Positions 8,074-58,970 of a stretch of 64,000 nucleotides of DNA are shown here, piece by piece. The translations under genes and the position numbers were made by a program. Where the stretch lies: assembly GCA_023634235.1 (NCBI GenBank), contig JAMKCF010000029.1:1674001-1738000 (forward strand). The letters are read 5' to 3'. The notes below the pieces were generated by a model, which was not told the DNA's origin, searched no databases, and was given only the letters and a program-made list of their open reading frames with translations. The stretch is from Pisaster brevispinus. Its lineage: Eukaryota; Echinodermata; Asteroidea; Forcipulatida; Asteriidae. Every line of letters begins with the position of its first letter. The stretch's first letter is position 1.

Positions 8074-8890
8074 TCAATTAGTGATCCGAATTAGCCATCT
8101 CCAAAATTAAGTGTGCCCAGTGGTATGGTTTATGGGACTTAGGAATACAATTCCATCTTTTATTTAACATAAAGGGTAAAATACTTTACGGCGAGTGCAG
8201 TCATAATAGTAAGTATTTGTGACAAGTGCCATACATTAAAGTATGACAGAAAATGGCTTTTATTGTAGTGACTAGTTAGGTATCAATTAGTGATCCGAAT
8301 TAGCCATCTCCAAAATTAAGTGTGCCCAGTGGTATGGTTTATGGGACTAAGTAATACAATATCATCTTTTATTTAACATAAAGTCGAGTGCAGTCATTAT
8401 AGTAAGTATTTGTGACAAGTGCCATACATTAACGTATGACAGAAAATGGCTTGTATTGTAGTGGCTAGTTAGGTATTAATTAGTGATCCGAATTAGCCAT
8501 CTCCAAAATTAAGTGTGCCCAGTGGTATGGTCTATCGGATTATGGAATAAAATTCCATCTTTTATGCAACATGAAAGTAAATCAACTTTACGATGAGTGC
8601 AGTCAAAATAGTTAACGTATGGTCGAAAATGGCGTGTATTGTAGCGGCTAATTAGGTATTAATTAGTGATCCGATTTAGCCACCTCTAAAATTAAGTGTG
8701 CCCAGTGGTATGGTCTATCGGATTATGGAATAAAATTCCATTTGTTTATGCTACACGAAGGGTACATGGGGGTGAGTGCATGTTTGTCAGCAGTTGCTTA
8801 ATATGAGGTCTTAATTGTGGCGGCTAATAACTCCCTAATTGTGCAACTAAATGAGCTAATTCGGTCTACGAGTGTGGCCATTGATATGTT
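8074..8890. repeat. Tandem repeat, ~190-bp unit, about 4 copies
   Basis: Units begin at about 8074, 8282, 8475 and 8658, each with aattagtgatccgaattagc or a close variant followed by a shared tgtgcccagtggtatggt block. Spacing shrinks (about 208, 193 and 183 bp) through internal deletions, and divergence rises to the right. The first unit directly abuts the 16-bp satellite. Confidence 0.9.
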
Positions 8891-18100: not shown

Positions 18101-21100
18101 CAGACTCCTTAGGAGCAGCAGCGTCTCTTATAAGCATGGTCAGTTGCCCAAACATCCAGGGACCACTCAAAATCTTCTCCACGTGGTCAAGCTGGCTAGG
18201 TCAAGGTTGTCAAACTTGATACCTGTATAACATGAAATATGGACCAGTGAAAATGCTGGAGGGGTATTTAATGAAACAAGAGTCTAGTCACTGAAAGTGT
18301 GAAAGGAAACCTGCTTAGGATTGTGGGATTTTATTCCTACCAAAGAAATTTGCTACTAAAGAATTGTTTCTTCTTAATACCTTTATGAAAATTTACCTTT
18401 TCAAAGTTCTTTTTCCTTTGGAGACTGGGTGGGGGAAGGTGGCATCATCTAAAAAAAAGGCAAGAATATTTTATTTTACTTTACTCCATACAGTGGGTTT
18501 TTTCAAACTAATAATGAAATGCGAATTGAACGTCATTGTGTTTCTTAATCAGACGGCCAGCCCATCATGGCCACTGGAAGCACACCTGGGCACATTGCAC
18601 TCTGGAATCTAGAAGAGAAACGTCTTCAAGCTCAAATGAGAAATGTCCACAAGTCTGGCATCGCTGGCATGAAGTTCCTATCATCGGAACCAGTCATGGT
18701 GACAAACTCTTCTGATAACGCTCTCAAGGTGTGTTGGATGTCCGTCCCATCACCTATCAGTGTTTCCCTTGGCATGTGAACTTCTTGCATACTTCCTCAA
18801 AGAGAAATCAAACTCTCATGCATCTGTTATGTAGAGTTTGGCTGCCATAGTCGTCCTGCTTAAGGAATTGTCAAACTCGGCAACAAACACAAGTTAAACA
18901 CTAATTCTCTTAGAGCTGAGTGTTGGTTCTCTCCTATGCCACGAAGGTTTTTCTCTGGGCTTTCCGGTTTTCCTCCCTCCGGAAAAATCAAATACTTTCG
19001 ATCTCTGTCTGTGCTCCATGGTCATATATGGGTCAATGTGGCTGGCTGACAAAGGCCCCCATGCATGCCTGTGGCTCCAACACGTTGTAGCCACATCCTT
19101 CACTGTTCAGCTTCTCAGCTGCAAGTAAGGATGATTAGCCTTCCAAAATATTATTATTATTATTATTATAGATGTTAGAAATTTTGTTTCTGGATGTTTT
19201 CATAACTTGATTTTATGAAATTTGTCATTGAATCTAACAATTTTCAACATATTGTAGCTGAAAACCTTGTGTTAACTTTGCAGTGTGCTTGATACTTAGT
19301 TACATGTTTAAATTTGTCAGTTAAAATCAATAGTGATTCTTAACTATTTTGTGGAAATTGCTGATAGAGTTTGATTCTATTTACAACTATTTATTTTCTT
19401 GTATTAGATGTGGGTATTTGATCAGCCTGATGGAAGTGGACGCCAACTACGTGTTCGTGCTGGTCACAGTGCACCCCCAGCTAAGATTAAGTTCTATGGG
19501 GAAGAGGGGCAGAATATTCTTAGTGCAGGTATACATGTAGTTGATGTCACAAATTACGACTTTTTTTATAAGAGTGTGACTTTCCTTTGTTTGAATTGGT
19601 CATTAAGTCTCATCCACTGTGATTTTTGAGTGATAGATGCCTGCAATATAATATGTGGTGAATGCATCTACGCAGTACACAGTCAACCCTCCTATTGTCT
19701 GACAATCGTATATATCATCCACTGTGATTTGATTGATAAATAAACTATGCCAGCCTGCAGTGTGATATCATGTGGCATCTACACAGTACACAATCAACCC
19801 TCCTACTGTCTGACCATTCAATATCATCCATGGTTGATTTGAATGATAGATAAACTTTGCCAGCCTGCAATATGATATCATATAGTGACTGCATCTACAC
19901 AGTTGTTCCACCACACACAACCCTGACAGTTGACTGGTTTTGCATTGTCAGTCATCTCAGTGGCAAAGATCAATCAAGCTCGGGTGAGCACAATACCATG
20001 AATTGGACAAAGAGGGTTCAAATCCTGTTGCAGTCAGACCCATGAGTCATTTATCAGCAGATACTATTTTCATAACGATAAACTCATTTAGGCTCAGAGT
20101 GAAGGGGATTTTTAAGGAAGTTGTGGCATCAGCGTTTGAAAATAAATATCAACCAAGCCTTGCAGTTTGAAAGACAATCACCCCATGAAGCTTGTGGCGT
20201 TTCTAAGTCTCATATTTTCTCCTTAAAACATGATGAACAGTGTTCTTGTTTGTCTGAATGATTTGTCTCTGAAGGCCAAGACAGTAGCTTGAAGTCGTTC
20301 TCCACACTGCATGAGAAGCACAACAAAGACCTTGGCCAGGCTAACCTGAAGAAGAAGCTCGGTAATAAGAAGACTCATCTCAAGGAGAGATTCAAGATGG
20401 CGCCTATCACACAGTTTGCTGCAGGTATAAAAATGAACACATAGATATTTTATATAAAAAAAACCAATGTCGATCTGAAATACTGTTAAAAAAAAAATTG
20501 TTAAGCAGCTAAAGACACAAAATCACCACAATTGAAATAAGCACATCCATACTTGTTCAGAAAAACCTTACATAACTGCTTTGGTTTTTGTTTGTTTTCT
20601 CCAAGGCAAAACCATCTAACTTGATATGATTTCCAAAGGATGATCAGGTCCTTGTTTTGCAGAATTCCAGGGTTGAAATCAACAATTAAATCAGAATAAT
20701 TATAGTGTACATTTATGATGCACATAGCCTGTCATAAATGACACTCCTGGTGCAAAGTGTTTTCCTATCTGGTGGAGAATGATTTTATGAGATGAAGCAA
20801 CTGAAATACAACACCATGGAAGGTATACAAGTTGAGGTGGTGCATATTGCTGCCAGACCTTGCTAGAAACATTCTTTATGATAAGTTTACTGGGTTCTTA
20901 TACATGATTTACACAACACATTGGACATATGGTTTTATGTCCCACTTGGAGGACAAAGCAATGATGGTCAAGTGTCAAGACCAGTTCTCAAACCAACATT
21001 CTGCTGATCAAAAACACCAGAGCTTGAGTCCAGGGCCCAATATATAGAGCTGCTTAAGCAGAAAAAAATTGCTTAACATTTGTTTGCTAAGCAGAAATGA

Positions 21101-23855
21101 GCAGGATACCAGTCACAAGTTGTACATGTGACATGGTAGTTTGTCTGGTAACCATATTCTGGTTAGCATTATTTTGTTGTGCTTAGCTACTTTTTGGGCC
21201 TAGTTCTCAAACCAACACTCTGCTAGACCGCTCAGCTGCAACACGCCAGAGCAATTACAAGGTTTCTTTTTCCATTCGTTCCTTGCGTGATAAACAAACA
21301 ACTTAATTTGTATCTTTTCGTTGCCACCTCCCTAGAGAAGAGTCGTGAGAGTGAATGGGACAGCATAGCAGCATGTCATCAAGGAACAAACATAGTGACT
21401 ACCTGGAACTACCAACGTAGTACTATGGGCAACCACAAGATAAAGTGCCCCCATGTCAAGCCATCAGCAGCTGTTGAAGCCACGGTAAGCGGGTCCTTCC
21501 CTTCATAGCAGCATTTATAGTATAATCAAGGCCAGGCTCCAGTTTCATAGAGCTGCTTAAGCACAAAAAGTAGCTAAGCGAAACAAAAGTATGCTTACCA
21601 GAATAAGGTTGCCGGTCAAAATGTCATGTCGCATGTTCAGTTTGTGACTGGTACCCTGCTCATTTTTGCTAAGAAGAAAATTGTTCAGCAATACTTGCTG
21701 CTTAATTGGGCCCAGATTGTAAGCTTAGATTTCTCTGCTAAGCGAAAAATGTTATGAGGTGTCAGTCACAACAATGCAAAGTCTATGAAATCATGGCTGG
21801 TAATCCGTTTCTACTTAGTAAGATTTTCAATGTGCTTAGCATATTTTTGTTATGCTTACTAGCTTAGTAGTGCACATTTTAGGAAATGTTTATCGAATCT
21901 TGACATGCAGTTTGGCTCGAAAAATGGAACATCGTAGAGGGGCTTGACCTGTAACAGTTTGGTTGGCAGGAGGAAGCAATGCTAGGATGTGAGTCTTCCT
22001 TGTGTTGGGTTGTAGCCAAAGAGTGGGTGGCTGGACTATTTTTGTCATGGATGTTATTGCATTAGTTGGTTGTAAACTTCATGCAGATTATGTAAAATAA
22101 AAACAAATTTTTGAACACACTATCAAAAGTTCATATATGAATATTTATTTGTGTGTTTTAGGCCATTGACATCACTTCATGTGGAAACTTTGTCGTGATT
22201 GGTTGGAGTACAGGTCATGTGGACACTTACAACATCCAATCAGGGATCCACAGGGGTTCCTATGGCAGCCAGAAAGGTAAAGTTGTCTTTTCTGTTGTTT
22301 TTCAAACTTTATGCCACTCGGTAGAAGAATAAAATAAAGGCCTTGTCTGGCTCTTTCACATTGATTTATAATAAATAAAGTAAATTTTTAAATTTCATGT
22401 TGTATATTTTCATAACGGTTAGCATGATATTATCCAATTAGCATTCATTTTATGAATTATAAGAGTTAGTTTGTTTGGCAGCGTATTGTTTGGCGGGAGT
22501 TAAATATTTGTTTTAGCATCACTTTGGTTGGGTAACTTAGTTGGTTTGAGTGCAATGAGTGTACAAAGTTGAATATTGAATGCCAGATGCCAGACTATTA
22601 AACCCAAGCTTTACAGAAAGCACATCAACATTGACAGTGCGTGATTTAGACCAATTTATTTTAGTTGATCTACATAAGGCCATTTCAGCAAGCAACTCTT
22701 CTGATGCAACAATAGATCAGTGCACGTGCAGACATTGACCATTACTACCGTCTTGTGGCTTCGCAGTCAGAAGCCATAGAAAACCTCAAACATGGTTTCC
22801 CTTTTTAGCATGAGAGACAGGTTTCATTTCTTCAAGTCACGCAAAAAGGATTAAATTCTGAGGTCCTTCAAACTTCTGCTTGCTCAAATATCAATGAGAA
22901 GCCGTACTCGAAAATAAAAACTCTTAGAAACCAACCTTAAGGAGGTATTGCATAGGGTAAAGAGACTTTTAATTGGAAGGGTTTGGAAAGTATCCAAATT
23001 ATGGAAACCAAACAGTAACAGTTAGGTTGTGCATGGACCTTACTTCATGGAAAGAATATTATTTTGGTTTATTATACAGGGATGAGAAATTTAGACTTTT
23101 ATCTGAGTTCAGAATTTTTAAGTTTCCCTGGTAAACAAAAAAACCGCTGTATTTTTCTCCAAAGAAAAGTAAGTCATGCTCTTTGATCTACTTCTCTAGC
23201 ACTGAGGATACTGTTTCTAAAAGCTCCTCAAAATATATTACTCCAGGGGTTGTCAAAAGGTGAAAATGTTATTATTATACAGATGTGAGAAAAAAGCAAC
23301 AACATTCAATCTTGTGAAAGGTCTCAGCTTCAAGCCAGACAAGGTTTTTATAAAGCTCCGAATTAGACAAATACTCAGTAGAGCTTAAGTCTAATCAAAA
23401 TGTTGTTGTCTTTTTGTTCAGCTCATGAGGGCGCAATACGAGGCCTTATTGTTGACGGACTCAACCAAATGGTCATCACAGGGGCGTCCGATTCCAAACT
23501 GAAGTTCTGGAACTTTAAGTCCAAGAAGTTGCTTGGACATCTATCCATGAATGCAGCTGTCAACCAGATGCTTCTTCACAGAGACAGGTTGGATTCAAAG
23601 CCGTTTTGTAGTATATTGCCTTGGGTGACGTGGGCATCAGGTTGGCTCGGTGGTGGTTTCTTTCCCTGCCTTTTACCTCTGTGGACCCCGGTTCGAATCC
23701 CACCTCGGACCAGAGCTTTAGCATGTAGATCAGGTTTTCAGTCCCTACCCTATTGCATGGGTTTTCTCCATTTGGGGTTTTCCTCACACATCTAAAACTG
23801 AACATTTCTTCTTGTTTCCTATACCCCATCCTGTTATGATGTGTAATGAAATAAG

Positions 23856-23930
<75 letters not shown>

Positions 23931-26900
23931 ATATATCAATGATTGGTGAAGTGTACTAGACGCAAGTTCTGTTGACAAACTCAATGGGATGTGGGTTCAA
24001 ACATTTAAACATGTATGTCCTTGAGTAAGACACTTAACTATAATTGCTTCTCTTCACCAAGGAGTAAATGGGTACCTAGGAGGAATGAAATAACTTGTCC
24101 AAAGACGTGTACAAATGTTTTTTACCATAAGCCTCTCAATTGGATGATTACTGGGTGTATTATATCCTTTGTTGTCTTTTACTTCTGTTTTTTTTTTTTT
24201 TTACTTTTATAAAAGTATTTTTGACTGTCATTTGTTTTCATTTTGGTTATTTAGTTCGATGCTTGCTGTTGCAATGGATGATTTTGTTGTCGCCATTGTT
24301 GATACTGACCTGAGGAGGGTTGTGAGAAGGTTCAAAGGTCATCAGAACAGGGTCACTGACTTGGTAAGAGATTGTGTACATTTATTAATGCTGATTGCTA
24401 GCTATTTGTATGATTCACACACTTTTGCATTCAGGCAGCCCCTTGCCATTTTGAACAAGATTTGAAAAACATTGAATTATATTGCTGTTTGTCTCTTCAT
24501 ACTACAGACCTTCAGCCAGGATGCTCGATGGCTGGTCACATCATCAATGGACTCAACCATTCGAACGTGGGACCTCCCATCCAGCAGGTAAAAAAACAAC
24601 ATTCTTAAGGATGATGGTGATTTTACTTTTGCATGACCATCTTGCCAACAAAATTTACAATTATGCCATTGGTCTTTCCCCACACACCTCATACAGCAGA
24701 TTTAAGTGATAATGAGTGTGTGAATCTTCATTCATAAATACCCCAGACAGTGAAAGCAATGTAAAGTTCTAACAACATTTTACCCTTTGGACTTTTGGGC
24801 ACGCATTGCATGTACATGTAGTGATTGTTCAATACATTAAATGGTAAGCTTTACAGGCTATGAATATGATATCAAACTTGGCTGTTTTTTGTGGATGATT
24901 TGGAAGTTATAAATCTCACTCCTCATTTAATTGATTCTTGTGATTATTTTGTTGATGGAGTGTATTCATTGTTCATTTCCCAGTTGTTTTTATGATTTTG
25001 TTGACATTAGTGGATTGTTTTCCTTACCAGTATTTTCCATTGCCATGATTATTTTGTTGATATTATTGATTTGGTTTTTGGGGGTCCATTTTTCAATTGT
25101 TGTGATTTTTCTGTTAATATAAGTGGACTTTTTTCATTGTCAAAATGTTTGCATTATGATTATTTTGTTGATGCTAGTACACTGTTTTCATCGATTGTAT
25201 TCCCATTGTTGTGATCATTTTGCTATTAGCAGACAGTTTTCATTGTCCATATTTTTCATTGTTATGGGTACTTTGTTCATATTAGTGGACTGTTATTATT
25301 GTCCATATTTTCTATTGTTATGATTATTTGTTGATATTGATGAACTGTTTTTACTTTGCATAATTTCATTATTGTGAATATTTTATTCAAATTGGTGGAC
25401 TGTTTTCATTGTCCATATTTTTAATTGCTTTGATTATTTCATTGATGTCTTTGGACTGTTAATTTGTCTTATTTTATTTGTTTTTATTTTGTTGATACTG
25501 TGGACTGTTTTTATTGTCCATATTTTCCATTGTATTTATTTTGTTGATTTTAGTGAATTGTTTAATTTTCCATACTTTTCATTATTATGAATATTTCAAT
25601 TAGATTGGTGGATAGCTTTCTACTAGAAGATGCTGCAACTAGTATAGCTCTCTCCCCAACTGGGGACTTTTTAGCTACGTCACACGTTGATGACCTTGGC
25701 GTGTATCTTTGGTAAGGAACACAATTGATTCTGTTTCAGAAGGAACTCAGAACTTGGTCTGTCTCTGCAAACAATTGCTATCCCAGTTCAAGGAATTGTT
25801 TGATCTTGAAAAAAGTAAATTTATGACCTTTTAACTGAAAACATTCTTTTCTGAAATACAGCATGGAAATTGTTATCTGTTGTGATTTGCCAGGTAAAAA
25901 TAAGCAAGTTTAAGAACTTGCACAATATGCAAAACATAAATCAGTTATTGTTAACATTTGTTATGAAACCACCTATTTCGCTAACACTCGGTGATGTGGC
26001 ATTTTTCTTGCACAATCTAAAGGTCAAACAAGACGCTGTACGCCCACGTGCCAATACGTCCCCTGCCAGATAACTATGAACCCAGCATTGTATATCTTCC
26101 AGGAACTAGCCTTGAGCCAGAGGGTAAGTCTTTGTGATAGATGATTCAGAAAAACTCATTATCCTTCAAAAGGAAGCATTTTCTTATTGTGGCTGTGCAT
26201 CACAGAGTGAAGTAGGTTATCTAAGAGATTGGCAGAGTACGGTCCAAATCATTGTACTTGTGTCCTAGAGCAGGACATTTAAACATAATTTGCTTTGTTC
26301 TTTTGGTGGGGCATTAAGCTTTAGGGTCCTTGCGATGTGTAATGGACATAAAAGAAACTAGTACCTGTCAGGCATGGTTGGCTGTAGAATATACCTCATC
26401 ACCCAGAGAACCCATTCAAGGCTTTTTATAAAATGGGTAACATCAATCAGACATAACTTTGTATACTCGTCGAAAAAGAGTATTTTATGTAAAGTGTTAA
26501 AAAAATGTATTTACATTGTGAAGTATTTATGTTGCCGAGATAGTTTGACAGCAAAGAGATAAAGGGACTTGGTTTATCACCGTTGCCATAGACAGACATA
26601 TTGTATTTGGCCCTCTTGTGGTCACTCACAGACCTGCAGGGTGTATAGATGACACTAATGACTGCATTGCCAGATAATTTGTGTATACTGACTTCCCTAT
26701 CATTCGCTAGAGAATAAAATGGAGTTCATATTTTAAAAAAAAGATCTTAATCTCTTTTTATAGAAATTCATGAGATAGATTCTGCAGAGCTTGAATCTGA
26801 TGACCTCGTGTCAGAGTTCATCTCACCACAACAGATCTCAGCTGAGCTGATCACGCTCTCGCTCCTGCCCAATTCAAGATGGAAGAGTCTTACCAACCTT

Positions 26901-29900
26901 GAACTTATCAAGGTCAGAGTTCAAACGCATTTTTTTTTTATCACAGAATCTTTGTGTTTTTATGATGGTGGAGTTTTCCCTGTGCTGTATTCTTGGTACC
27001 ATACAGGATACTCTTCCTACTTAAGTCTGCTTTTTGATTTTTTTTGCCCTTGGATTAGAAAAATATTTATTAAAACAGCTAGAAAAGTCCATAAAGCCTA
27101 CACCATTTGTGAGTGTAAGTCAGCCCTTGTGTTCGATAAAATGTTTCGACTTTTTTCCACAGACTAAATATCATGCCTGCTTGATACTCTCTGGTACTGC
27201 AACAAATAATTTATTTTGTACCTGGAGTTGGGACCAAACCCATGGCCTTTGATATTCAAGCTCTGTAGAGCAGGTTTCTTGAACATAAAGTACAGGATTT
27301 GTAATTATTATAAGAAACAATGAATAGTTTGAATTTGAAAGCTTACTGATATGTTAAGGTAATACTAGCTTTAATCCTCGAAGGCTCGATTTCACAAAGC
27401 ACTAAGATTCATCCTAAGATGAGTTGTCAGTATTACCATAGTGATTTGTATTGTGACATCACACTTTGCTTAGCAGTTAAGATCAATCTTAGGTCTTTGT
27501 GAAATCGAGCCCAGAGAAATATGCAGTAGTGTTCAAGTCAAGGAAACATTACTTTGTTTCTGTTTTTATTTTGACAGAAAAGGAATAAGCCTCAAGAGCC
27601 ACCCAAAGTGCCAAAGGCAGCTCCTTTCTTTCTTCCAACGGTAGCAGGCCTCACACCTAAATTTGTAACACCAGACACTGAGGAAGATAAAGACAAGGCA
27701 AGTCCATTTTTATTCTTTCTATTTTATATTTGTGGTAGCATAGGATTACTTAAAAGCACTTTTGCTGCTAACCACAACAATTTATCATGGCAATATTTTG
27801 TTCAGTAAAGACTGTTTACCAGTTAAATTGCCATGTTACATTGTTGTGACCGGTGCCCCTCTATTTTTGGCTTAGCTGAACACGTCTTGAGATGTGGCCC
27901 CTTTCTTCATATCCAAATTAGAGAAAAACAGTCTGGTGCAATCTCCATAGAATGTAAGATGTAATGTTTTCTCCCATCGGGGCTGTGTACACATCCTGCC
28001 TGCAGGAAGTCCAGGCTCCGTGGCATGTTTGCGAACAATTGATGTCACAGGTTGACACAGTTTGTATTTTGTAGCTCAACGGTCTATTCATATCGATAAT
28101 CGGGATCAGTGGAATTTTTTGATGATAATAAAAGCTGTATAGTTTCACTCTGTGAAGCGTGTATGAAAACATATGTGTTGTGTTTTGAGCATGATGTAAG
28201 ATTGTTATGTAACGGATTGTAGTCGTTTAGGGGTCACAGTGGGAGGTAAATTTGATGGCACCACATGCGATAGACATACATTGCCAAGTAAAAATATTTC
28301 ACAGCTCAGGAATAACCTCCTGTTGAATGGGACAGTCAGCTTGGCGTAGTGGTATCTTCCCTTGCCTTCCACCTCTAGGACCCTGGTTTGATTCCTGCCG
28401 GGGGCACTGTGTCGATTAGGTTTTCATTCCCTGCCTGAATGCGTGGGTTTTTCCTGGACTAATGCTCTGGGGTTTTCCTCCTACATCTAAAACTGAAACT
28501 TCCTTTCTTGTCTTCTCTCTCCATTGGGTTCTTGGCTAGTATAGTGATTCAGTTCGCTTTTCTGAGAGTCCTTGGCTTTACAACCAGAATTAATCACTAA
28601 ATAAATAAAAACAAATGATTGTCTTTTCCTAGGATACGGGAAGAGCTTTCAGTCAGCAGAGCTTTGGGTCACAGTCCGTCCTGTCAGCAGCTCTGGAAAA
28701 GAGTGTCCATACAGAAACATGTAAGTTACACTGATGTGTATAGACCCCGTGCACAAGGCGTAGTGCACTCATACCAGCCTATCCTGTCTGCACTGAACAT
28801 TCAACTCCCAAAATGGTGGAAATGGTAGACGCGCATTGTTCGGAGGAGCGTTTCGCGTTGTGCAAGGGGTCTATAGAAATCAATAGACCCCTTTGCATAA
28901 CGCTAAACGCTACAAGTACGCTGACGTCACACATACGTTTTTACGCATAAAGAACACCTATCGTCCAATGATCTGCCTCCTTTTGGCCTCAGGGATGGCA
29001 CTCTACGTCATATGCAAGGGCTCTATTGATAAAAGAACAAACTCTCTCTTTTATTTATTCATTCTTTATTCATCTTCTTCCTCATTCTCTTTAAGGCATG
29101 TGCAGATGCAATTTAGGTCTTCATATCCTAGTTAAATACACTTTCAGGAAATGTACAGCAGTTAAACATTTTTTTTTTTTTTTTTTTTTAAATCCGCTAA
29201 CAAAAGCAAATGGAATGGGTTCACCTTTGACTTGTGAATTGGTTTAATTCTTTAGTTCTGTGTTATTTGGTGTTGCCACAAACTCACAGTAAAGTTTGTG
29301 CAAGGACTAAAGTTTAACTAGAGGTTGTTTAGTGGCATACGTAGGGCATGTGCACAGAAGTTGTAGTGTAAACGACTCTAGTCACGCCATGTCAATGTGA
29401 CTGGCAGCTCAATGTGAATTAGCATTTTCTGATAACTGGTCCACTCTGCCCTGTGCTATGAAAACGGCTACTGATAACCAGTGATGTGACCATGCCCGGT
29501 AGGCTGGTTCCAAATAGTAGACTAGCGTAGTCCAACTATCTTCGACTAGACAGAGTTTGGGCTAAATTAGTTGAACTATGGTCAACGTATGGCCCATGTA
29601 TGATGAGCATTGTCTTCTCAGTGCTCCTGAGTCCTGTAGACAAACTCAATTTCTAGGCACCATGGGTAGGATTTGAATCTGTGACCCATCGCAGTGTAGA
29701 GAGGGAAGTGTTACGTGAACGCAACCAGAAACAAGCTTTAGATGTAAAATTCACTGACAGAAACAATATCTGAGAGCAATGCAAGAGTGGGTTGGTAACC
29801 TGAAGCAATTTTCAACCGTTTAGCATTTGTCATTTGCAAAGAAATTCAGTAGACACATTTGTTCGTTTGTAAATTCCACCATCTTGAAACCAAGCTCATA

Positions 29901-39519: not shown

Positions 39520-42500
39520 ATGGATCGCGCTACTCGGAAAAAGCTGCTGGAATCCAAGAAGGCAGAGCTCGCTGAAGCGATTGATGCAGATGCAATCGCT
39601 AAGGAATTGGTCTCAAAAGATGTGATAAGCGAAGGCATCAGAGACCTGATTCTAAAGCTGAAGACCAACAAGGAGAAGACCAACAAACTAGTGGACGCGC
39701 TCAAGATTTCAAAGGGGAAGAAATTTGAGCTGTTCTGCAATGTGCTGAGTGAGCAGGGTCATGAGAAACTCGCCGAGGAGCTCTTGCCGAAAGATAAAGA
39801 CAAAGACACTGATGGGAGGCGTAAGAACAGAACTCCATCTGCTGGTGGTAAGTATACCAAGCTTGGGTTACACCATATTTAAAACGACTACTTATGGAGG
39901 TACAGCCTTGTAGCCAATTGGCCCCGGGGCACGTGCCCCTACAATTTTTCCAGTGCCCTCAGGTGCCCTCACGAAAAAATCCGGCAGTGCCCGAGAGAGC
40001 GCACATGGCCCCTCCCCCTGGAAAACAATGCCCTAAGTGCCCCCCCCCCCCCAAAAAATAACAAAACAAAACAACAACAACAAACAAAAACAACAAACAA
40101 AAACAACAAACAAAAACCCTCTCGCAATACCTCTGTGGAGATTGTTTTCCCTGGGCGTTGGCCCTCCAAATTGGCCATCCAAATCCTTCCATGCCCCGCT
40201 GAACATCTCCGCGGAAATAAGATAAGCTAACATTCAAGAAAGATGGTAAGAGGGTTCACCTCCAGCTAGGTTCATGTTTTTATCTCGTCTCACGGAGGAT
40301 AACAGTTTGGGGTAACATTTGATGTAACCGCAATCTTTTGTGTGCTAAGCACATTTTGTGCGTTAACACACTTCAAGAAAACTGCCCTTTATTGAGACGA
40401 TGATCATTCCTTCGGATGAAGAATAACTTATTAAGAACACGTCTGGCTGTTCTTTTGTTTTTCTCAGTACAAAAAAGTCAAGTTAGATTCCTGGTGTCTC
40501 GTGTGACGTAAGCGTGACGTACTGTGGTTCCAACACACACACCACGCCTAGTTCACACAGACTGGTTCTAGTAATCATAACATAAGTAATTTATTGTCAA
40601 TGCATTCAGCCGCTGGTGTTTGGGATCCAGTCAATAAATAGGAAACTCATTATATTAAACGTTGTAGAATAACTCAAGGTATTTTCTTTCCTTTTGTTTT
40701 CCTTTTTTTCCGTAAAAACTCACCTGATAACTTTTGAGTTGAAAAACACGTGGCGATACGGAGTGTACAAATCTTGTCAACATGTCATGTTCACATTTTA
40801 CGAAAGAAGAAGAAAAAAACAACGACCAAAAACATACAAACACAAAACAAAACAAAACCCTCCAAAAAACAAACAGTTTATAGTGTGTCTGGAATTGTTG
40901 GTTTATTTTGTTGATAGTAGGCTAGGCCCTATGTGTTTATCGAAGTGCCGGTATCAAGTCTATACAAAATGGCTTTAAGTTTACAATACAAAAACAAAAC
41001 AGCGTGCCATTTCTTTACAAAAAATAATAATTTAAATTTATGCTTTAAAATATTCATCTAAATGAAAGTATATACATTATGACTGTGTTTCATGACACAA
41101 TGTATGCCTAAATAGGAGTCTGCCAATAGCGGGGAAGGAAGGGGGACCCTCAGTGTAAATGTGTCCATAGGAAGCTTTTACAATTACCGACTCGTTCAGA
41201 AGAGAACAGTTTTGTTTGGATAGTTGTTATGGAGGTGGGGGATGAACTCTGCTAACAACTGTTTAGTTTCCAATAGCATTTCACCTTGGAAAGTAAGAGA
41301 TCCCTAGCTATGAATGCTGTAATTTATTTGATAATATGAGTTGTTTAATATAGAAAAGGGACAGGTTTAGAGTGGGTTCCACCCACAGTGTCGAGTTTGA
41401 GTACATTTAAGATCAAAGGTCAGTTGAAAGAGATAATAGTTTTATTTTATTTTTTTGATGTAATCTGCATATTATGATTGATCAATGCATATTCCGGTCA
41501 TTGTCTTTCCAATAAACACATGCATGTGAAATGAAATGAAACACAAAGTTCTCAAAAGAAATACATAACGATAATATCAATGCAGTTTTGACTAAGTCAT
41601 ACTAACGTATGGCAAGCAGGTTATGTCTAACAATAGTGTGATGACGTGTTTATTCACGGAATAGTTGTTCGACATGGTGTTGTTACACTCTGTCATTAAT
41701 GCATACTTCAACTGTCAGATAATGATGTCATTGCTTTATATTTGCATTACTCGTTCTATGCCTAAGTACATGAGTTTTGTCGTTAGAATAGATGATAAGA
41801 ACCAATAATAAATTTCTCGCACACAGCCGTATTTCAGGCAAAATTGTCAGTCTATTAAGAACTTCATTCATCCGTGAATTAATCATGATCAATCACTTAT
41901 GACACAACAAATGTGCAAGGTCAGGACAACATGGCGGATTGTAAAATTGTTAAAGTATTGCATTTACGTGGGCGTAGCTGGGCATTCATTGGCAGCAATT
42001 GTTTCATTATGGTAAGTCACTGTAGTGCGGATCGCAATATGAAAACTCACTGATTATTAAGTTCATACCATCCGCAAGAGATATATTTCAATTTCAAAGC
42101 TCACTGATTCTAAAGTTCATACCAGTACCAATCCTCCAGAGAAATATTTCCATCTGAAAGCTCACTGATTCTAAAGTTCATACAAGTACCAATCCTCCAG
42201 AGAAATATTTCCATCTGAAAGCTCACTGATTCTAAAGTTCATACCAGCACCAATCCTCCAGAGAAATATTTCCATCTGAAAGCTCACTGATTCTAAAGTT
42301 CATACCAGCACCAATCATCCAGAGAAAAATTTCCATCTGAATTATTATTATAGTGGGGAAAATATCAATTGCAGAAAAAACAACAATCGTTATTGCTTAT
42401 TTCTATTGCTGCAGTCAAAATAAGAAAAAAGTAAGTTGCACGAACCGAAGTCGCTCACAATATAAAACATCTTTTGTTGCTTTTTTTAAATACTAAAATG

Positions 42501-45500
42501 GAATCACCTAAATAAGTTTTCTATGGTAATTTTTCAAGTTTGATGTATGTGTTTATTGGAATCCCTAGAAAGTAGAGAGACTAGAAATAGAGAGAAAGGT
42601 CTGTCTCCCTTCTTAATGCAGATAACTCTGTTAGAAATATAATATTTGTATTAGTTTTAGAAACGGAGATATGTATCTCAACAAATTAATCTGTCTCATA
42701 ATTCAACAATTTTAAAAAACTGTTTTTAAAAATGGTTAACACAGATTTAATGAGTGACTTAGGCCAACGTGTCGTGCACGTCAATTTATTTATAAATGTA
42801 ATAACACAACCTACTTCTTTTTGACTTTCACACAGCACATAACTTGACAATATTTACAATAACGAGGTGAACCCGTAGTGGATGAAATCCTCTAATGTAA
42901 ATGACATTCAGATGATTGACAATTTTACTTTCATTTCTTAAGTTACGTTTCCTGTTCAAATCTCCGTTTTCATTTCGGCATTTAGGCCTAAACAACAGGC
43001 CCAACAGCAATCATGTTCATCTTTCTATGGATACATTTGAAGGAGGATTTTTTTCTGGTGTATTTTACTTTTAGTATAGTAAGTTTATGGTATGACCCTT
43101 TTTGTTTATGAATCCTGGTTTAAATCCTACCTCAGCCTGGAGCCTTCCATTGATTTGCAGCTGATTGCGTGGGTTTTCCTCATTGGGGTTTTCCTCCCAC
43201 ATCTAAAACTGAACATTTCTTCTTGTTTCCATTCTTCCTGTTATTTGCGCTAATTGTTTTGTTGAATGTGTAATGGGATAAATAAATAGATAAATCAATT
43301 TCAAGTGTTGGATAAAACTCCAAGTACAAACTGACAGAGCATTGGAAGAAATCACTTAATTTAATACCCCCAAAAGGCCAACCTCGTTCCCAGTGGTGTA
43401 CAATCTCGCTGCGCCATTTTTTCCCAGAATGCCTTGCTCAATCGTTAAGGGCCTTTTGAGGGTCTTTTTTAAATAAAATAATAATAGCTACGATTTATTT
43501 TATGATGATGATCATAATAACAATAGCCTAATATGAATAATGATAATAATAAAGATCCCCGTTCTTATTATAACACTTTCCAATATCACACTGATTAGTA
43601 TTTCAAGGCAGCTCACTTAAAAATGTAAAGTGTTTATGAAGTGTTTACAATGTGATCCCATTATTCTGAAGAAAAATACTTTCTCGTCATTTAGATTGTT
43701 TTTCACCGAACGAATTTTCCTAGGACGTATAATGTTACAAACACGGATATGCCTAACATACTGTCACGCAAAGCACGAGTAGTTGTAGCTTGCGAACATT
43801 GTTTGTGCGTAGCTACCTTGAAAACTGTTGCTGTGTTATTTTTTCTTTTCCTTTAAATTTTTTTTTTGTTGTTGTTCATTGTCTCAAATGAAAGTATAAC
43901 ACTAAATTTACTAAAGAAAAGAAGCTAGTTAATATTTAATAAAATTATTTACCGTGAATTTGGTTATACATTTTCTTAAAACAAACCAACGATTAAACAC
44001 CCCAACTTCACACACAAACAGCCAATGCAAATTATGTAAATGATGAATCTATTTGTCAAGGCCGAGTAATTCTTTGATCGCCTTTTGTTCTTCCTTTTTT
44101 CCCATACAGACGCAAAATTAAACTCCTCCATTTCAGGCAGTTACGTCGACGTCTTCAAAACCTGTCGTAACTGTTTCATCAGTGACGTATCGGCTGACCC
44201 AGAGAGTTTGATTCGAAAGCTGGAGGCGGGAAATGGAGTCACCCTGACGAGCGCCACCAAGCATCAACTGGAGACCGCATCTCGTGCAGATAACAAGGCT
44301 GAGATATTGTTCAATGCCATCTTGCCCCAAGTCAATGAATACGGGCCGTTCTTCGACATTGTGCAACTCTTACGAGATCCGTTCCCGCATCTCTCCAACA
44401 GTTTATGGGAACAACTGAAGAACATCGTGGTACCCCCAAAGAGTACGTTCTAACTTAGGATAGCCGACCTCGTCTATTTTTGAAATTATAGTGTTAAAAA
44501 TGACGATTAGCTATTTAAATTAGGAATAATTTTGCTGATACCCTGTGCTGGAGTTTAATACCCCAATTTCTTTGTAAATATATGAAGCATTGTCTTTTAC
44601 TTATTTTATTCCTTTTTAACGCGTTCAGAAACTATGGCTTAAAACCGCTTTACACATTGGGAAGAATTTTTAATAGTAGGCTACACTTATTTAAAAAAAA
44701 ACAATTCTCGGGCAATCATAAAAAGGACATACACAGTCAAAACAGCAAAAACATTATAAGAAAAAACAAAAAACAAAACAAACAAACAATACAAACACAG
44801 AGGAAGTGGTGAGTGAACCTGCTAGACTCCGATGGATTGCCCTAAAGAAACTTTCCCCACCAGCTGGTTCTAAGTAGAACAAAGTTCGTTGTTCTGCGAA
44901 AAACCAGAGATGAAGTGGGTCTTTTAATTGAACAGGTCCAAGGAGAGAGAAATCTTTTAAAAGCCACAAGAATAAAATGATTAATGTACTCATGCAACTC
45001 TGGATATTTTCAGTTTGTTTACACATCAAGTCTAACTTTCTTCCATCTGTATTAGGTGGCTCCAACGGTAAGCGCAAGAAACACAGCGCGGGAAGTTTTC
45101 ACTCGTCTGTCCCATCATCATCAGGGAGCTTCAGGGGCTCTCCCAGCAATACCCGAAATGGGGCCTCCAATGACGTGATGAAGTCACTGACAAACCTTCA
45201 GTCAGACTTAACTGAGTCACAGAGTGATAGTCTGAAGCAATCATTACAACTGGAGAAGTGCATACAAACCACAGCTGAAGCCAACATGGCCATCAAGAAG
45301 CTCAAGGAGCAATTAGCACTCGCCGAGGAGGAGCGGGATGCGGCCACGTCCCAAGCAGACACGGCAAGGCAGCAGGCCACTGAAGCACGGCAACATCTTG
45401 ATGTTGGTCTCACTGAGGCAGAAGGAGAGCGGAAGAGGCTAGATGATCAGCATCGCAAGTGGGAGGGCCAGATGAGGAGGCGCATGGCAATGCTGGAGCA

Positions 45501-48500
45501 AAAGGAGACATACCTTGCATCCAAGGAAGTTGAGCTGAAGCGGAGGGAGGAGGAGCAGAGACAACGCACCCAGCTTAATAGACGCCAACAGGACTCCCTT
45601 GAAATGAAAGGACGGGACATGGTCTACCGTGGAGATCGCCAGGATCGTCGCAGCGCCGAGCATTACGTCAGACAGGATAGGATAAAAGAACGTGAAAGTA
45701 ATATCGAGAACAAGGAGTTGCAGCTGGCTGAGAGAGAAGATGAGATCACCAAGAAAGAGGGCGCCCTGAAGAAGAAAGAGATCGATCTTCGTCGTAAAGA
45801 GATAGAGACGGTACGCCTCGAAGAGCAGATAAAGACGATGCAGGTAGCACAGCGAAAGATGGCAACTCAACTTAAACAGAGAGAGCAAACTATGGCCCGG
45901 GCAGAAGAAGATGTCAAGATCATCGGTGAGAGTCTTGAGCAGCGTGAGAAGAATCTTAAGGAGAAAGATGCTAGACTCAAACGGGAGGACTTGAGGATAA
46001 AAGAGAGATCAGAGGAGTTGGAAGAACATCAAAACCTAGTTGAAAAGAAGGAAAGAGAAGTCCAAGAAATGGCACAGGAGCAGCGGGAGTGGGAAAGCGC
46101 ATTGGAAACTAAAGCTGAGGAGATGGGCGATGCTTCAACAGAATATGAGAAGACAGAAGAACTACTGCGTCAGAGAGAAGAGGACCTCAACTTCAAGAAG
46201 AAAGAGTTGGACAGTCTGCAGGATGTCTTGGATTGTCGCTTACAGGCTCAGGAGAGAATGGAGCGTGCCCTGAGGATGATTGAGGTTGAGCAAATACGCC
46301 GTGATAAGGAGCTCCTCAACCGGGAGGCTGAGCACTTCCAAGTGTGTCTCCCAAATCGTGATAAGATCACTGCGATGGAGGATCGCTTGGAAGAGCTGGA
46401 GAAGAAAGACGGGGAGTTACAAAAACGCGAGGAGCTCCTCAGCTGGATTGAAGTCGAGCAGCAGCGTCGAGAGGTAGAGCTGCAGAAGGAAGAACTGATG
46501 ACGGAGAAGGCCCGGCGGAAGAAACAAGAACTTGGGGAGCATGGGGAGCATCCAGATGGGGCTGATTTTGATATGGAGGATGACCAGAGGACCGAAATGG
46601 AGTCTGTTCCGCTCAGTGAGAACCAGGATAATGAACAGGACCAAGAATTAGAAGCACACGGCTTTGAGATTGCTCTGAAGGGTGCCCGATATCCCAGAAA
46701 ATCCCGAAAGGATTTCTTTGACGTCACAGCAGCTGGACTGCATACTGTCGGGGATTTCAAAAACGTGCTTGAGGTAGAAGAAGGGATACCGGCCAGTTGG
46801 CAAAAGCTGTACATGAATGGTCAACTCTTGGAAGACAATATGCCAATACCCAGCGTGGACAATGGAGGTCCTAAACCCAAGTTTGAAATGCGATTGGCAA
46901 CACCTGCTATGAGCCAACGGAACCTTTTCAAGCTGAAGGTGAGTTTATACTCAACTTTTGCGCCCTAAGTTGAATGCTCATTGTTTAATGCATCCTCCGT
47001 ATTCAAACTTAAGATAAACCTTAATTAGGCCAAGTCTTTTATACACTCCTACTCACTCTCCAATCCCCGCATTTTTAAGGATTTTTTTCTACACAAATTG
47101 CATTTTTGTACAAAGTTTTGTTTTTCCGTTAGTCAAAACAAAATCCTATATGCTTTCTAATTAATATCCCTTGTATACCTGGAAAAAAACCACAAGTTGC
47201 AAAGCGAATTTCTTTAATATTATTCCCTCTACTGACGCTTTCCACGTTGTATCGGAAACGTGGTTGTGATCTTTGGCTACACGGCAGTTACAGGTTGAAA
47301 GGCTTCTGACTGGCACCCCGAACAAATATATTGACAAATAGGGAGACCGCCAGCATGGGGCTAGATGGCCTAATTGGTAGAGCGCCGGCACATTCAAGTC
47401 TCGCCCTAGTCAATTTGTCTTTCTTCAATCCAAACTTTAAGATCATTATCAAACTAATTTTTTAAACACTCGTTCATGTCTTGACAGGTAAAAAGTTGCC
47501 ATGGTCCCACCCACACCATTGACTTCTCCTCCGAAGACACCGTGGCGTTGGCCAAGTGCCGAATTTACAAGTACACTGGCATACCCCCTCACCAGCAGCA
47601 GCTGTCATACAAAGAAGTACTACTGGAGAACCACGCCTCTCTCCAGCTCTACTCGATCAGGAAGAATGCAACTCTTGATCTCAGATTGAGGTTTCCCGTG
47701 GTTGCTAAGCTGTCAGACACAGAGGAGCTTGAGATAACCGCAGATGAAATTAACACCACTGCTAACATCAAAGCCACCATATTCGAGAGGACCAAAATAC
47801 CACTAGATCACATAAAGGTAAATGAGCGTTTCTTCGATGACAAACAAACAACAAACACTATACAACAACACAAACCTAAAATCAAACGTCACAACAGTAA
47901 TTTGGACAGAGCCAAATGTGAGACTTATTAGGACTCTAGGTGGCAGCAGACTTACCAGGTAAATCCATTTTTTTCTTGGAAATGTGAGCATGCCATACAG
48001 TTATAATATCTATTGAGCATACTCAGAACGACGTAAACAATGGAAATTTACCTGGTAAGTCTGCTGCCACCTAGCCTCCAATAGTCTCCCATTCTAAATA
48101 TTTTTTTTAATAGTTATTGTTGTGACCAACATCCTGCGAGAAAATTAGACCCACTTTTTACTATACGAAAAACCATACTTTTGCAGCAGAAAAGTAATTC
48201 CTGCTTTTTATTTCTCTTGTTGTTAATTTAGATCTCTTACAAAAACAAACAGCTGGAAGATTACCGCACTTTGTCCCACTACAACATTGACGAGGGTGCC
48301 ATTCTGCAAGTCTCGTGCCCCGTGGCGGTCCAGCTTTTCCCCGGCGGTACCAGCATCAACGTGGACGTGGAACCAGGGATGACCGCGCACCAGCTGAAGC
48401 CGCTCCTTGCCCGCAAGAAGAACCTTCAAGTCGACAAGATGTACCTGGTCTGCGGTGACCAGGTTCTTGCAGATGATCAAGATATCCTTGATCTGCTGCG

Positions 48501-48669
48501 AGCTAACAAGGAGATATCCATGCACGTGGGTAACGTCCTCATTATGTCCTCTTCTGGCCAACTCATTCAGGAAGCCGGTGAAGATAAACCAGATGATTCA
48601 CATCTAGACCAGTCGCTTGATCTGAGTGTGTCCTCACTGAGTCTCAAACAACCTCAGTCCTCCCGTTAG
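39520..48669 (+). CDS. CARD-CARD / coiled-coil / four tandem ubiquitin-like domain protein (5 exons)
   Basis: Exons: 39520-39847, 44110-44442, 45056-46938, 47488-47817 and 48232-48669. The phases join and give 1,103 residues plus stop. The ATG sits in aacATGG. Residues 1-92 form a CARD-like six-helix death fold (ends near LAEELLPK). A second, more diverged CARD-like fold follows at about 125-218. A Ser-rich linker leads into a highly charged coiled coil (about 260-750) of repeating Lys/Glu/Arg heptads. Four ubiquitin-like domains follow: ~755-848, 843-916, 917-988 and 989-1064. Domain 2 contains GIPPHQQQL, close to ubiquitin GIPPDQQRL; domain 3 contains NKQLEDYRTLSHYNI, close to GKQLEDGRTLSDYNI. 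None ends in a processable Gly-Gly. An acidic Ser/Leu tail closes the protein. CARD plus coiled coil is the plan of CARD9/CARMA adaptors, so a cytosolic scaffold in innate or death signalling is inferred. Function is untested, and the CARD calls are by eye. Confidence 0.9.
40039..40120. repeat. C run followed by CAA/AAAC microsatellite (intron 1 of CARD gene)
   Basis: A 14-base C run is followed by imperfect caaacaaaaacaa repeats. The preceding segment (gtgccctcaggtgccctc) resembles one at ~296-345, so both may derive from one dispersed repeat. Confidence 0.6.
42043..42341. repeat. 61-bp tandem repeat, ~5 copies (intron 1 of CARD gene)
   Basis: Units containing tcactgattctaaagttcat start at 42101, 42162, 42223 and 42284, with a degenerate unit before them. 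Each also has ccaatcctccagagaaatat. Copies are nearly identical. Confidence 0.95.
43085..43298 (+). mobile_element. tRNA-derived SINE, copy 3, degenerate head (intron 1 of CARD gene)
   Basis: A B-box-like ggtttaaatcc is followed by gattgcgtgggttttcctc, ggggttttcctccc and acatctaaaactgaacat. The tail is ataaataaatagataaat. The A-box region is truncated or decayed. Confidence 0.8.
43380..43450 (+). repeat. Dispersed repeat, family D, copy 1
   Basis: The segment from caacctcgttcccag to cagaatgccttgctcaatcg matches the minus strand at ~49530-49630 and the plus strand at ~60895-61005. It includes the shared gcgccattttttcccag-like block. Confidence 0.6.
47357..47405 (+). repeat. tRNA-like fragment (intron 3 of CARD gene)
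   Basis: gatggcctaattggtagagc is a good D-arm/A-box sequence, and ttcaagtctcgcc shortly after resembles a T-arm. The anticodon arm is missing, so this is a SINE head or tRNA pseudogene and not a functional tRNA. Confidence 0.45.
47919..48090. mobile_element. MITE-like family E, copy 1 (intron 4 of CARD gene)
   Basis: Terminal inverted repeats of ~45 bp: ctaggtggcagcagactta plus ccaggtaaatcc at the left, and their inverse (ggatttacctgg-like, then taagtctgctgccacctag) at the right. It lies between exons 4 and 5. A relative is at 57.29-57.41 kb. Confidence 0.9.
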
Positions 48670-48879: not shown

Positions 48880-48885
48880 ATTAAA
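48880..48885 (+). terminator. Possible polyadenylation signal ATTAAA of the CARD gene
   Basis: ATTAAA occurs ~210 bp after the stop codon. A canonical AATAAA is not seen until about 50241, so the true 3' end is uncertain. Confidence 0.35.
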
Positions 48886-50554: not shown

Positions 50555-51059
50555 CAGATTCAAATGTTTTGGGGTAAAAATTGTCCAAACAATATTAATT
50601 CAAAAGGAAACCTTCTCAAAATAGTTGATACTATCAACAACTGCAGTGCCTCTCACCATTTAAAACAATAATTGTCATTAGTTTTTTGGAGTATTTACCA
50701 ATCTATGACTCTGTACCTTTTAAGAACAGAAAGTTGTCCAATATACGTGTCTTTGTAGTCGGGTAGTATTAATTATTTGAAGAATATTTAAGAGCACATT
50801 GGTACGGTGCTCTTGATATCTTGTTCTGTTTTAGTAAACAGATTCGAACATGAGCCCAACGGTATGAATGTTACTTAACCCACCTGCTTTTTCGTATTTT
50901 AGGGAGAATACTAGAGAGAATTGAATAATTAAACAAGCGGTAGCTAGAGGTTGAACCCCGGTTAACCCTAGCAATCCTGTAAAAACAAAAAACAAACAAA
51001 CACCCCCAACACCCCCAACACCCCAACAAACAAAAACAAAACAAAAACACCTCCAAAAT

Positions 51060-52172
<1,113 letters not shown>

Positions 52173-57405: not shown

Positions 57406-58343
57406 ATGGCAGCGCCGCGTGCAACACTTCTGTGTACGGATTGGGTCATACCTGGATCATCTGATGGGTCAAATTTCATCGAGCTTCTTAAGTGTTAATA
57501 TTTAGAGAAACGGTTTTTTAAGTTTTTTTACTGACAAATCTATAAATCTTTTTGAACATTTTGAGTGCATTCTGGATTCTAAATTTGTCTACGCATGTCC
57601 GTAAAAACACTCTCTATGATGCACCCATTATAGTCTCATCTCGTGACTTGCTCTTACACAGCTGCATGTTTGGTTTCACTTTCACCCTAAGCAAAAATGA
57701 GCAGGATACCAGTCACAGACAGCGCAGGTAGAGCGCTATTTTGGCAAAGATGGTAATGGTAAAAAGCATCCAGCGAAATTATTTTCGTCTGAAGTGTCCC
57801 CGCTTGATTATATATTAATAAAAGTGTGTCAAATTCACTCCCAAAAGATCATTTGCAGGTAATTTAAACGTTTCCGTGGTGTCCGTTTGAATGGCACAAA
57901 ACTTTCTCAAGATTCTTTCGTTCCAGATTGTAAATACTTTTATTATGAAGACCATGTCCAAATTGACGGCTACGGCTACGACTACAGCTGGATTACCACG
58001 TCATCATGTGTGGAAGTATGGGACGTCCTTATAATATAGTTGTGGTTACGGCTTGAGAGAGAATTCATATATAAGAACATTTACCAAGTCTGATTATGTC
58101 TAAATGAAGTTGAATATGCCCTCCCAGAGTGCTCAAGATTTTTTGCATTTTCTGCGGTGCAGAAGTCTTACTGTGTAATTGGTTATTGTAGTTGTTCGCT
58201 GTGACGCACGAGTTTCTACTTCTTTCTCTTTAAAAGATGAAGTTTACTGCGATAAAGCCATTCAGATCTCTGAAAACTCAGCAGCTGCAACAAATCTGAA
58301 TTGGCAAATCTGTTGATCACAACTAGCTATATTACCTAACACG
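57406..58343. other. Upstream region of the Ras-like gene
   Basis: No other gene is recognised. A fragment of MITE-like family A is at 57687-57720. The GTPase 5' leader must lie in the last few hundred bases. I see no clear TATA box or splice acceptor that fixes it. Confidence 0.5.
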
Positions 58344-58970
58344 ATGAGGCAGCAACGTGAAGACTCTGACTCCTACCGTTTGGTCGTCTTGGGCTCCACG
58401 GGTGTGGGCAAGTCAGCTCTGGTCTCCATGTTCCTGAAAGGTAACATCGACAGGACCTACAGGCCAACGGTTGACGACATTCACGTTGGGTACGCGTGGC
58501 AGGGACGCAGGAAGTGTAAACTTGAAATCCTTGACACATCGGGCAGTTATGATTTCCCTGCCATGCGAAGACTGTATATCTCCACTGGTCACATATTCCT
58601 TCTAGTACATTCCCTCAAAGACCCCAATTCCTTCGAAGAGGCTCTTGGTATCCTGGAGCAGATTAGAGATGAACGCACGGAACAAGATGTGCCAATTCTT
58701 GTTGTCGGTACCAAATCGGACCAGAAACGCCCCGGTTGTGTAAGCAGTGCCGAGGCTGAGCTTAGACTGATTGATTACATGAACGTCGTTAGGTACGTCG
58801 AATGTAACGCCAATAGCGCAGACAGCGTGAACTGTCTCTTTAAACAGGTTGCCAATGTGATGTTGAACCCCCGTGACAGGGCGACTTCTTTGCCGGTAGA
58901 AACGGACGCACAGCCACCAAAACGATCAATGTCATTCCTAAGGAGACTGAAGAGCATTCGCCGAAACTGA
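58344..58970 (+). CDS. Ras-family small GTPase, intronless, atypical catalytic residues
   Basis: The protein has 208 residues, close to the usual Ras-family length. The P-loop is GSTGVGKS (17-24), switch I holds PTVDD (41-45, with T42 as the Mg-binding Thr), switch II is DTSG then SYDFPAMRRL (64-77), and TKSD (123-126) is the guanine-recognition motif. The FPAMRRL stretch is typical of the Di-Ras/Rhes/RASL branch and not of H-Ras. Position 12 of Ras is Thr (T19) and position 61 is Ser (S68). Ser at 61 is known in Di-Ras proteins, and changes at these sites generally lower GTP hydrolysis. There is no C-terminal CaaX box; the end is basic (FLRRLKSIRRN), so any membrane binding would rely on charge. 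The nearest family and partners are not settled. Confidence 0.93.
   Translation: MRQQREDSDSYRLVVLGSTGVGKSALVSMFLKGNIDRTYRPTVDDIHVGYAWQGRRKCKLEILDTSGSYDFPAMRRLYISTGHIFLLVHSLKDPNSFEEALGILEQIRDERTEQDVPILVVGTKSDQKRPGCVSSAEAELRLIDYMNVVRYVECNANSADSVNCLFKQVANVMLNPRDRATSLPVETDAQPPKRSMSFLRRLKSIRRN

Follow-up and report, generated by a model that had tools for sequence, protein, structure and literature searches.

Gene structure and genomic surroundings

The stretch of Pisaster brevispinus DNA analysed here (64,000 nucleotides, hereafter the window) contains a gene of five exons on its forward strand. It also holds a rhodopsin-type GPCR gene, exons of the ribosome-biogenesis gene WDR36/Utp21, a Ras-family GTPase gene and two tandem repeats (Table 1). 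By translation of the predicted model, the five GT..AG exons splice with intron phases 1, 1, 0 and 0 into a single open frame of 1,103 amino acids. The start codon is preceded at a distance of 24 bases by an in-frame TAG (39496), and an ATTAAA lies 3' of the stop codon at 48880. G+C content was 48-52% in the five exons versus 41% in the whole window.

Table 1. Features of the five-exon gene and of its surroundings (positions in the window; aa, residues of the predicted protein).
Feature	Position	Residues	Strand	Remarks
Exon 1	39520..39847	aa 1-109 + first base of codon 110	+	start Met, CARD1, basic linker
CARD1	about 39541-39783	aa 8-88	+	Pfam PF00619, E 1.1e-9 on exon 1
Exon 2	44110..44442		+	symmetric phase 1-1; predicted second, sequence-cryptic CARD at about aa 118-216
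Exon 3	45056..46938		+	Ser/Pro-rich basic linker, coiled coil, acidic linker, Ubl1, first residues of Ubl2 (from splice sites and phase)
Long coiled coil	45181..46530	aa 263-712	+	hydrophobic period 3.50 in 4/4 species
Acidic linker	46531..46653	aa 713-753	+	net charge -15
Ubl1	46654..46905	aa 754-837	+	divergent, about 19% identical to ubiquitin; PF00240 E 2.1e-7
Ubl2	46927..47694	aa 845-917	+	exon 3 supplies the first four residues, exon 4 the others; PF00240 E 4.9e-14
Exon 4	47488..47817	aa 849-958	+	bulk of Ubl2, first part of Ubl3
Ubl3	47695..48318	aa 918-987	+	interrupted by exon 4/5 intron; PF00240 E 1.9e-13
Exon 5	48232..48669	aa 959-1103 + stop	+	last part of Ubl3, then Ubl4 and a tail lacking diglycine
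Ubl4	48319..48537	aa 988-1060	+	PF00240 E 3.5e-5; 10-12% identical to the other three repeats
Rhodopsin-type GPCR	2074-3294		-	one 407-residue open frame; PF00001 E 1.4e-41
16-base tandem array	5758-8075			144 copies, 99% match; several frames open on both strands
WDR36/Utp21 exons	12645-27164		+	three frames with matches to PF25171 and PF25168 (both below cut-off) and PF04192 (above cut-off)
CAA microsatellite	51024-52161			about 380 copies
Ras-family GTPase	58317-58967		+	one 217-residue open frame; PF00071 E 1.1e-30

The original prediction, made from the letters of the window, had joined these exons in phase into one protein of this length, and the gene model was borne out by the splice signals at all four introns, the open frame and collinear orthologues in other sea stars. 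A fusion of separate genes by annotation appears very improbable. The 4.3-kb intron between exons 1 and 2 would be the place to suspect one, but three public orthologues are the same collinear protein, the coiled coil and the first ubiquitin-like domain (Ubl1) are joined within the frame of exon 3 alone, and the exon 3/4 and 4/5 junctions fall inside Ubl2 and Ubl3.

Orthologues in sea stars

When residues 1-230 were searched against 5.8 billion proteins (E <= 0.01), exactly three of 3332 candidates matched, and all three were from sea stars. These were Asterias rubens LOC117297546 (1,092 aa, 87% identity over residues 1-230 and 89% over the full length), a Patiria miniata protein (1,102 aa, 63% and 65%) and an Acanthaster planci protein named "trichohyalin-like" (1,100 aa, 56% and 64%). 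All three carry CARD and ubiquitin Pfam labels in the public records. In full-length alignment they run from the same first Met through the last residue. No gaps occur around junctions 3 and 4; linker sequence within a few residues of junction 1 (P. miniata and A. planci) and junction 2 (all three) contains gaps of 1-3 residues. The comparison was made at the protein level, and this agreement is one of collinear proteins, not of exon structures.

With the C-terminal part of the P. miniata protein as query (residues 730-1102, E <= 1e-5), 8 of 4693 candidates matched. Three of them were the sea-star proteins, and the other five were unnamed proteins, 26-28% identical, that contain several domains of the ubiquitin family. 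A query from which the coiled coil had been removed (E <= 0.001) gave 3 matches among the 8000 best candidates and none beyond sea stars. The same architecture was not found outside sea stars at the thresholds of the N-terminal, C-terminal and coiled-coil-removed searches and was present in three sea stars besides P. brevispinus, which agrees with the lineage restriction proposed earlier. Such searches require shared 5-residue words, and distant orthologues in other echinoderm classes could therefore be missed. The protein is a conserved new architecture built from known domains and so far seen only in sea stars.

Conservation differed among its parts. The proportion of P. brevispinus residues kept in the three orthologues was 57-87% for CARD1, 69-89% for the exon 2 domain, 25-82% for the first linker and 69-88% for the coiled coil, and for the four ubiquitin-like domains it was 48-92% (Ubl1), 84-100% (Ubl2), 67-95% (Ubl3) and 50-79% (Ubl4). 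CARD1 was thus less conserved than both the coiled coil and the exon 2 domain. Conservation was highest in Ubl2 (100% in A. rubens and 84% in both P. miniata and A. planci), which suggests a specific contact made by this domain.

A CARD and a predicted second CARD at the N-terminus

CARD1 showed both the CARD sequence profile and the six-helix fold over residues 8-88. Its nearest sequence in the PDB was CED-3, a design on template 1cy5 was also close, and by fold it was nearest to APAF-1. The PDB profile search gave 19 matches at E <= 10 from a shallow profile of 4 sequences, and CARD9 and CARD11 were absent among them.

For the domain on exon 2, sequence searches were negative throughout. The P. 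brevispinus exon had no Pfam match at E <= 10, none of the four sea-star sequences matched a CARD family at that threshold, and the sole Pfam match across the set was the unrelated DUF5969 in one sequence (E 0.034). A PDB profile search gave no useful match (best E 2), and profile-profile comparison with CARD1 detected no similarity (hhalign probability 0.15%). The AF2 model of this exon was all-helical (pLDDT 84.5, pTM 0.77), with helices at 11-17/19-26 (a split helix 1), 30-38, 47-55, 59-73, 77-88 and 92-106 in exon numbering, and its best structural matches were the CARDs of APAF-1, MDA5, CED-3, RIG-I and CED-4. The modelled six-helix bundle, with its split helix 1 and with CARDs as top matches, is that of a CARD, although the CARD sequence profile is not recognised. 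On the basis of this predicted fold we are confident that exon 2 encodes a second CARD, as had been proposed by eye. A TRADD-N domain, suggested by the work of Kaur et al. 2021, was considered for exon 2 and rejected, given the all-helical model and the missing Pfam match; the RRM-like alpha+beta TRADD-N had no Pfam match in the whole protein or in exon 2 of the orthologues.

Other CARD genes were also found in the P. brevispinus assembly (549.7 Mb, 512 contigs), where a CARD family search gave at least six matches at no fewer than five places. Two adjacent matches (L003/L004, G000:C16:5181279-5181779) lie in or beside a 190-residue open frame and represent another tandem-CARD gene. At 1429-2401 of L001 (G000:C4) a CARD exon is followed by an exon resembling a death domain by eye, perhaps from a RAIDD/CRADD-like gene. 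On the minus strand of G000:C22 (L006/L007/L008), short open frames downstream of a CARD exon look coiled-coil by eye. The CARD exon of this last gene (L006) had no match at E <= 1 in a PDB search.

Coiled coil

The long coiled coil makes up about 40% of the protein length and is almost free of proline. Its periodicity was reached by none of 1000 shuffles in each of the four species. The heptad signal peaked at about aa 441-615, and in three of the four species its phase stayed approximately the same from about aa 266 to about aa 680, as judged in 70-residue windows of which several carried little signal; in A. rubens the phase shifts after about aa 616. AF2 placed long helices at 276-451, 458-645 and 651-708 of the A. 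rubens protein with low confidence. Domain-domain contacts could not be read from the full-length AF2 model because its confidence was too low (pLDDT 55, pTM 0.26). A single alpha-helix was considered on account of the high charge, but a coiled coil agrees better with the sharp hydrophobic period of 3.5 residues seen in all four species.

Ubiquitin-like array

Pfam family PF00240 matched each of the four C-terminal repeats. Ubl1-3 were above the cut-off in the P. brevispinus protein, whereas Ubl4 remained below it (23.9 vs 25.4 bits) and was above it in all three orthologues. Ubl1 was above the cut-off in all four species (E 2.1e-7 to 4.8e-10) and by its sequence probably has a ubiquitin fold; the full-length AF2 model left it at low pLDDT without a modelled fold and modelled Ubl2 only in part. 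By the boundaries used, about 73 residues separate the starts of Ubl2 and Ubl3, which follow each other without a linker.

The repeats were 19-37% identical to ubiquitin and none of the four ends in GG, so that a conjugatable ubiquitin and a proper polyubiquitin were rejected. The Leu8/Ile44/Val70 patch was not retained either. The position of Ile44 is occupied by Tyr or Leu in Ubl1, Ser or Ala in Ubl2, Ser in Ubl3 and Val, which is still aliphatic, in Ubl4; position 70 is Arg in Ubl2, Ser or Thr in Ubl3 and Gly in Ubl4, and positions 8 and 70 of Ubl1 were poorly aligned. Binding of general ubiquitin readers seems doubtful because the Ile44-centred surface is altered in at least three of the four Ubls.

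The domain order of the original prediction (CARD, second CARD, coiled coil, four Ubls) was recovered in the three other sea stars, including all four ubiquitin folds. Absence of an N-terminal death fold or of a C-terminal ubiquitin fold had been named beforehand as grounds for rejecting it, and both folds were found.

Comparison with known systems

An N-terminal CARD and a long coiled coil within one chain are shared with CARD9 and the CARMA proteins (CARD10, 11, 14), and by analogy the sea-star protein likely works by bringing CARDs together. CARD9 is not known to have a C-terminal domain and the CARMA proteins end in PDZ-SH3-GUK. In contrast, the sea-star protein ends in four Ubls; the whole-protein Pfam scan gave no PDZ-SH3-GUK (MAGUK) domain. 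In CARD9/CARMA a single CARD leads directly into the coiled coil; in the sea-star protein the two are separated by a second CARD and a Ser-rich linker. We do not place the protein in this family because its coiled coil is not adjacent to a single CARD and, with respect to CARMA, because the MAGUK end is absent. Excerpts of the literature describe how the CARD of CARD9 and CARD11 is held against the coiled coil and, on release, nucleates BCL10 filaments, and how ubiquitin at Lys125 of CARD9, near the coiled coil, displaces the CARD, with line broadening of the Leu8/Ile44/Val70 face (PMC6624267). The relationship to CARD9/CARMA put forward earlier was not upheld, in view of the resemblance of CARD1 to CED-3 and APAF-1, the missing MAGUK part and the other candidate gene: the CARD and coiled-coil gene on C22 may be the true CARD9/CARMA relative of this genome, a lead found by eye.

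Two tandem CARDs are also a feature of RIG-I and MDA5, and NOD2 has tandem CARDs as well. Unlike these proteins, the sea-star protein has no helicase, NACHT or LRR, and its Ubls are covalently built in. The CARDs of RIG-I bind K63 polyubiquitin, for which the two tandem Ubls of OASL can substitute (excerpt of PMC4446440), and a structure of MDA5 CARD with polyubiquitin was among the fold matches, judging by its title. For the NOD1 CARD, contact with ubiquitin was mapped by NMR to the Ile44 face in solution and lies near Phe4 in the crystal (excerpt of PMC4134136). OASL resembles our protein in its tandem C-terminal Ubls, which are linked to CARD signalling (PMC4446440, in excerpt), and differs in that the sea-star protein has four Ubls, CARDs of its own and a coiled coil; an OAS-like nucleotidyltransferase domain had no match in the whole-protein Pfam scan. 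With linear polyubiquitin (UBC) the array shares ubiquitin folds arranged head-to-tail without linkers, but not the level of identity, the GG ends, most of the Ile44 patch or the lack of fusion to other domains.

The nearest printed precedent found was that of Kaur et al. 2021, who described marine-invertebrate TRADD-N proteins with death-fold domains and polyubiquitin fusions in the DEDD2 clade (PMC8195603). The likeness lies in the immune-type pairing, in marine invertebrates, of a death-superfamily protein with ubiquitin units. The DEDD2-clade proteins have an RRM-like TRADD-N, usually with a DED, and form variable expanded families (excerpts of PMC8195603), while the sea-star protein combines CARD-CARD with a long coiled coil, is without TRADD-N and is collinear in four sea stars. 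Among the matches listed from the open literature (subscription papers and preprints outside its scope), neither this protein nor a CARD with tandem Ubls was described. The original view that a ubiquitin-like array is added in no described family needs qualifying, given the TRADD-N clade, which usually carries a death-fold domain and is reported to have polyubiquitin fusions.

Possible function

We tentatively propose that the gene encodes a cytoplasmic adaptor-scaffold that nucleates CARD assembly and docks partners via its Ubls, likely in innate immunity or cell death. In this model, the coiled coil, with heptads over up to about 420 residues, would pair chains side by side, presumably as a dimer, and would thereby gather two or more tandem-CARD heads. 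Once released by a signal, these CARDs might nucleate CARD assembly in analogy to CARD9/CARMA with BCL10 or CED-4/APAF-1 with caspases. At the other end, the four packed Ubls would form a fixed docking array, not conjugatable or remodellable like a real ubiquitin chain, that might recruit one or more specific partners chiefly via the conserved Ubl2. By analogy, tandem CARDs, rod and Ubl array would supply the physical components of a CARD switch whose ubiquitin layer is built in. The immune or death role is putative, and the output may run via NF-kB/BCL10. This adaptor-scaffold reading draws on the spliced frame with full-length orthologues in three sea stars (64-89% identical), on CARD1 by sequence and fold, CARD2 by predicted fold, the heptads and the four Ubls, and on the precedents of a CARD with coiled coil nucleating BCL10 filaments (PMC6624267, in excerpt) and of OASL Ubls acting for K63 polyubiquitin (PMC4446440, in excerpt). 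The altered Ile44 surface and the departure from the CARD9/CARMA layout, by a second CARD and a Ser-rich linker, speak against it. The lower conservation of CARD1 relative to the coiled coil and the exon 2 domain would also be unexpected if CARD1 were the chief working part, and its contrast with the coiled coil led us to rate the adaptor-scaffold slightly lower and a structural role slightly higher.

Such a role, in which the protein is mainly a structural or trafficking coiled-coil protein and its CARDs and Ubls are generic oligomerisation modules without function in immunity or death, is nevertheless unlikely. The large share and conservation of the coiled coil would fit it, as would the names trichohyalin-like and leucine-rich-repeat-like, but these names probably reflect coiled-coil composition, the coiled coil is surpassed in conservation by Ubl2, and all four aligned sequences retain both CARD regions. 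Quite unlikely is a regulator of a caspase pathway, in which an initiator caspase or a protein like APAF-1/CED-4 would be bound by CARD1, and the Ubls would connect the complex with an E3, a chaperone or the proteasome, as shuttle or inhibitor. The resemblance of CARD1 to CED-3 suggests little about its partner, since the nearest PDB sequence is weak evidence of one; UBA and catalytic domains were absent from the Pfam scan, and proteasome-shuttle Ubls classically use the Ile44 face, which is altered in most repeats. Rather unlikely, finally, is a cis-encoded mimic of a ubiquitin chain, with the Ubl array folding back or reaching between neighbouring chains and directly controlling CARD assembly via the tandem CARDs or the coiled coil. 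Polyubiquitin acting on RIG-I/MDA5 and ubiquitination of CARD9 would be its analogues, here accomplished within one chain. However, the NOD1 contact (PMC4134136) and the CARD9 displacement (PMC6624267), as described in excerpts of these sources, use Leu8/Ile44/Val70, which the Ubls have not kept, and a long rod separates the two ends of one chain. We infer both docking and chain mimicry as conceivable roles of the array, and we favour a docking platform for dedicated partners over a literal chain mimic on the CARDs because the Ile44 face is mostly lost.

Proteins that public records list as uncharacterized, trichohyalin-like or leucine-rich-repeat-like thereby receive a proper description. In signalling through NF-kB, interferon and caspases, CARD assembly and ubiquitin chains normally act as two distinct layers that enzymes couple to each other. 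A rather doubtful but far-reaching possibility is that the gene represents a genetically encoded ubiquitin chain, that is, a tandem-CARD nucleator joined by a dimerising rod to a permanent mimic of a linear chain, with CARD assembly and a ubiquitin-type signal stoichiometrically locked in one gene. If so, the signal usually added by E3 ligases would be built in and immune to deubiquitinases. In a conserved protein with both layers in one chain, their coupling would be open to study without ligases or deubiquitinases, and it would show a sea-star signalling scaffold outside the vertebrate CARMA and RIG-I designs.
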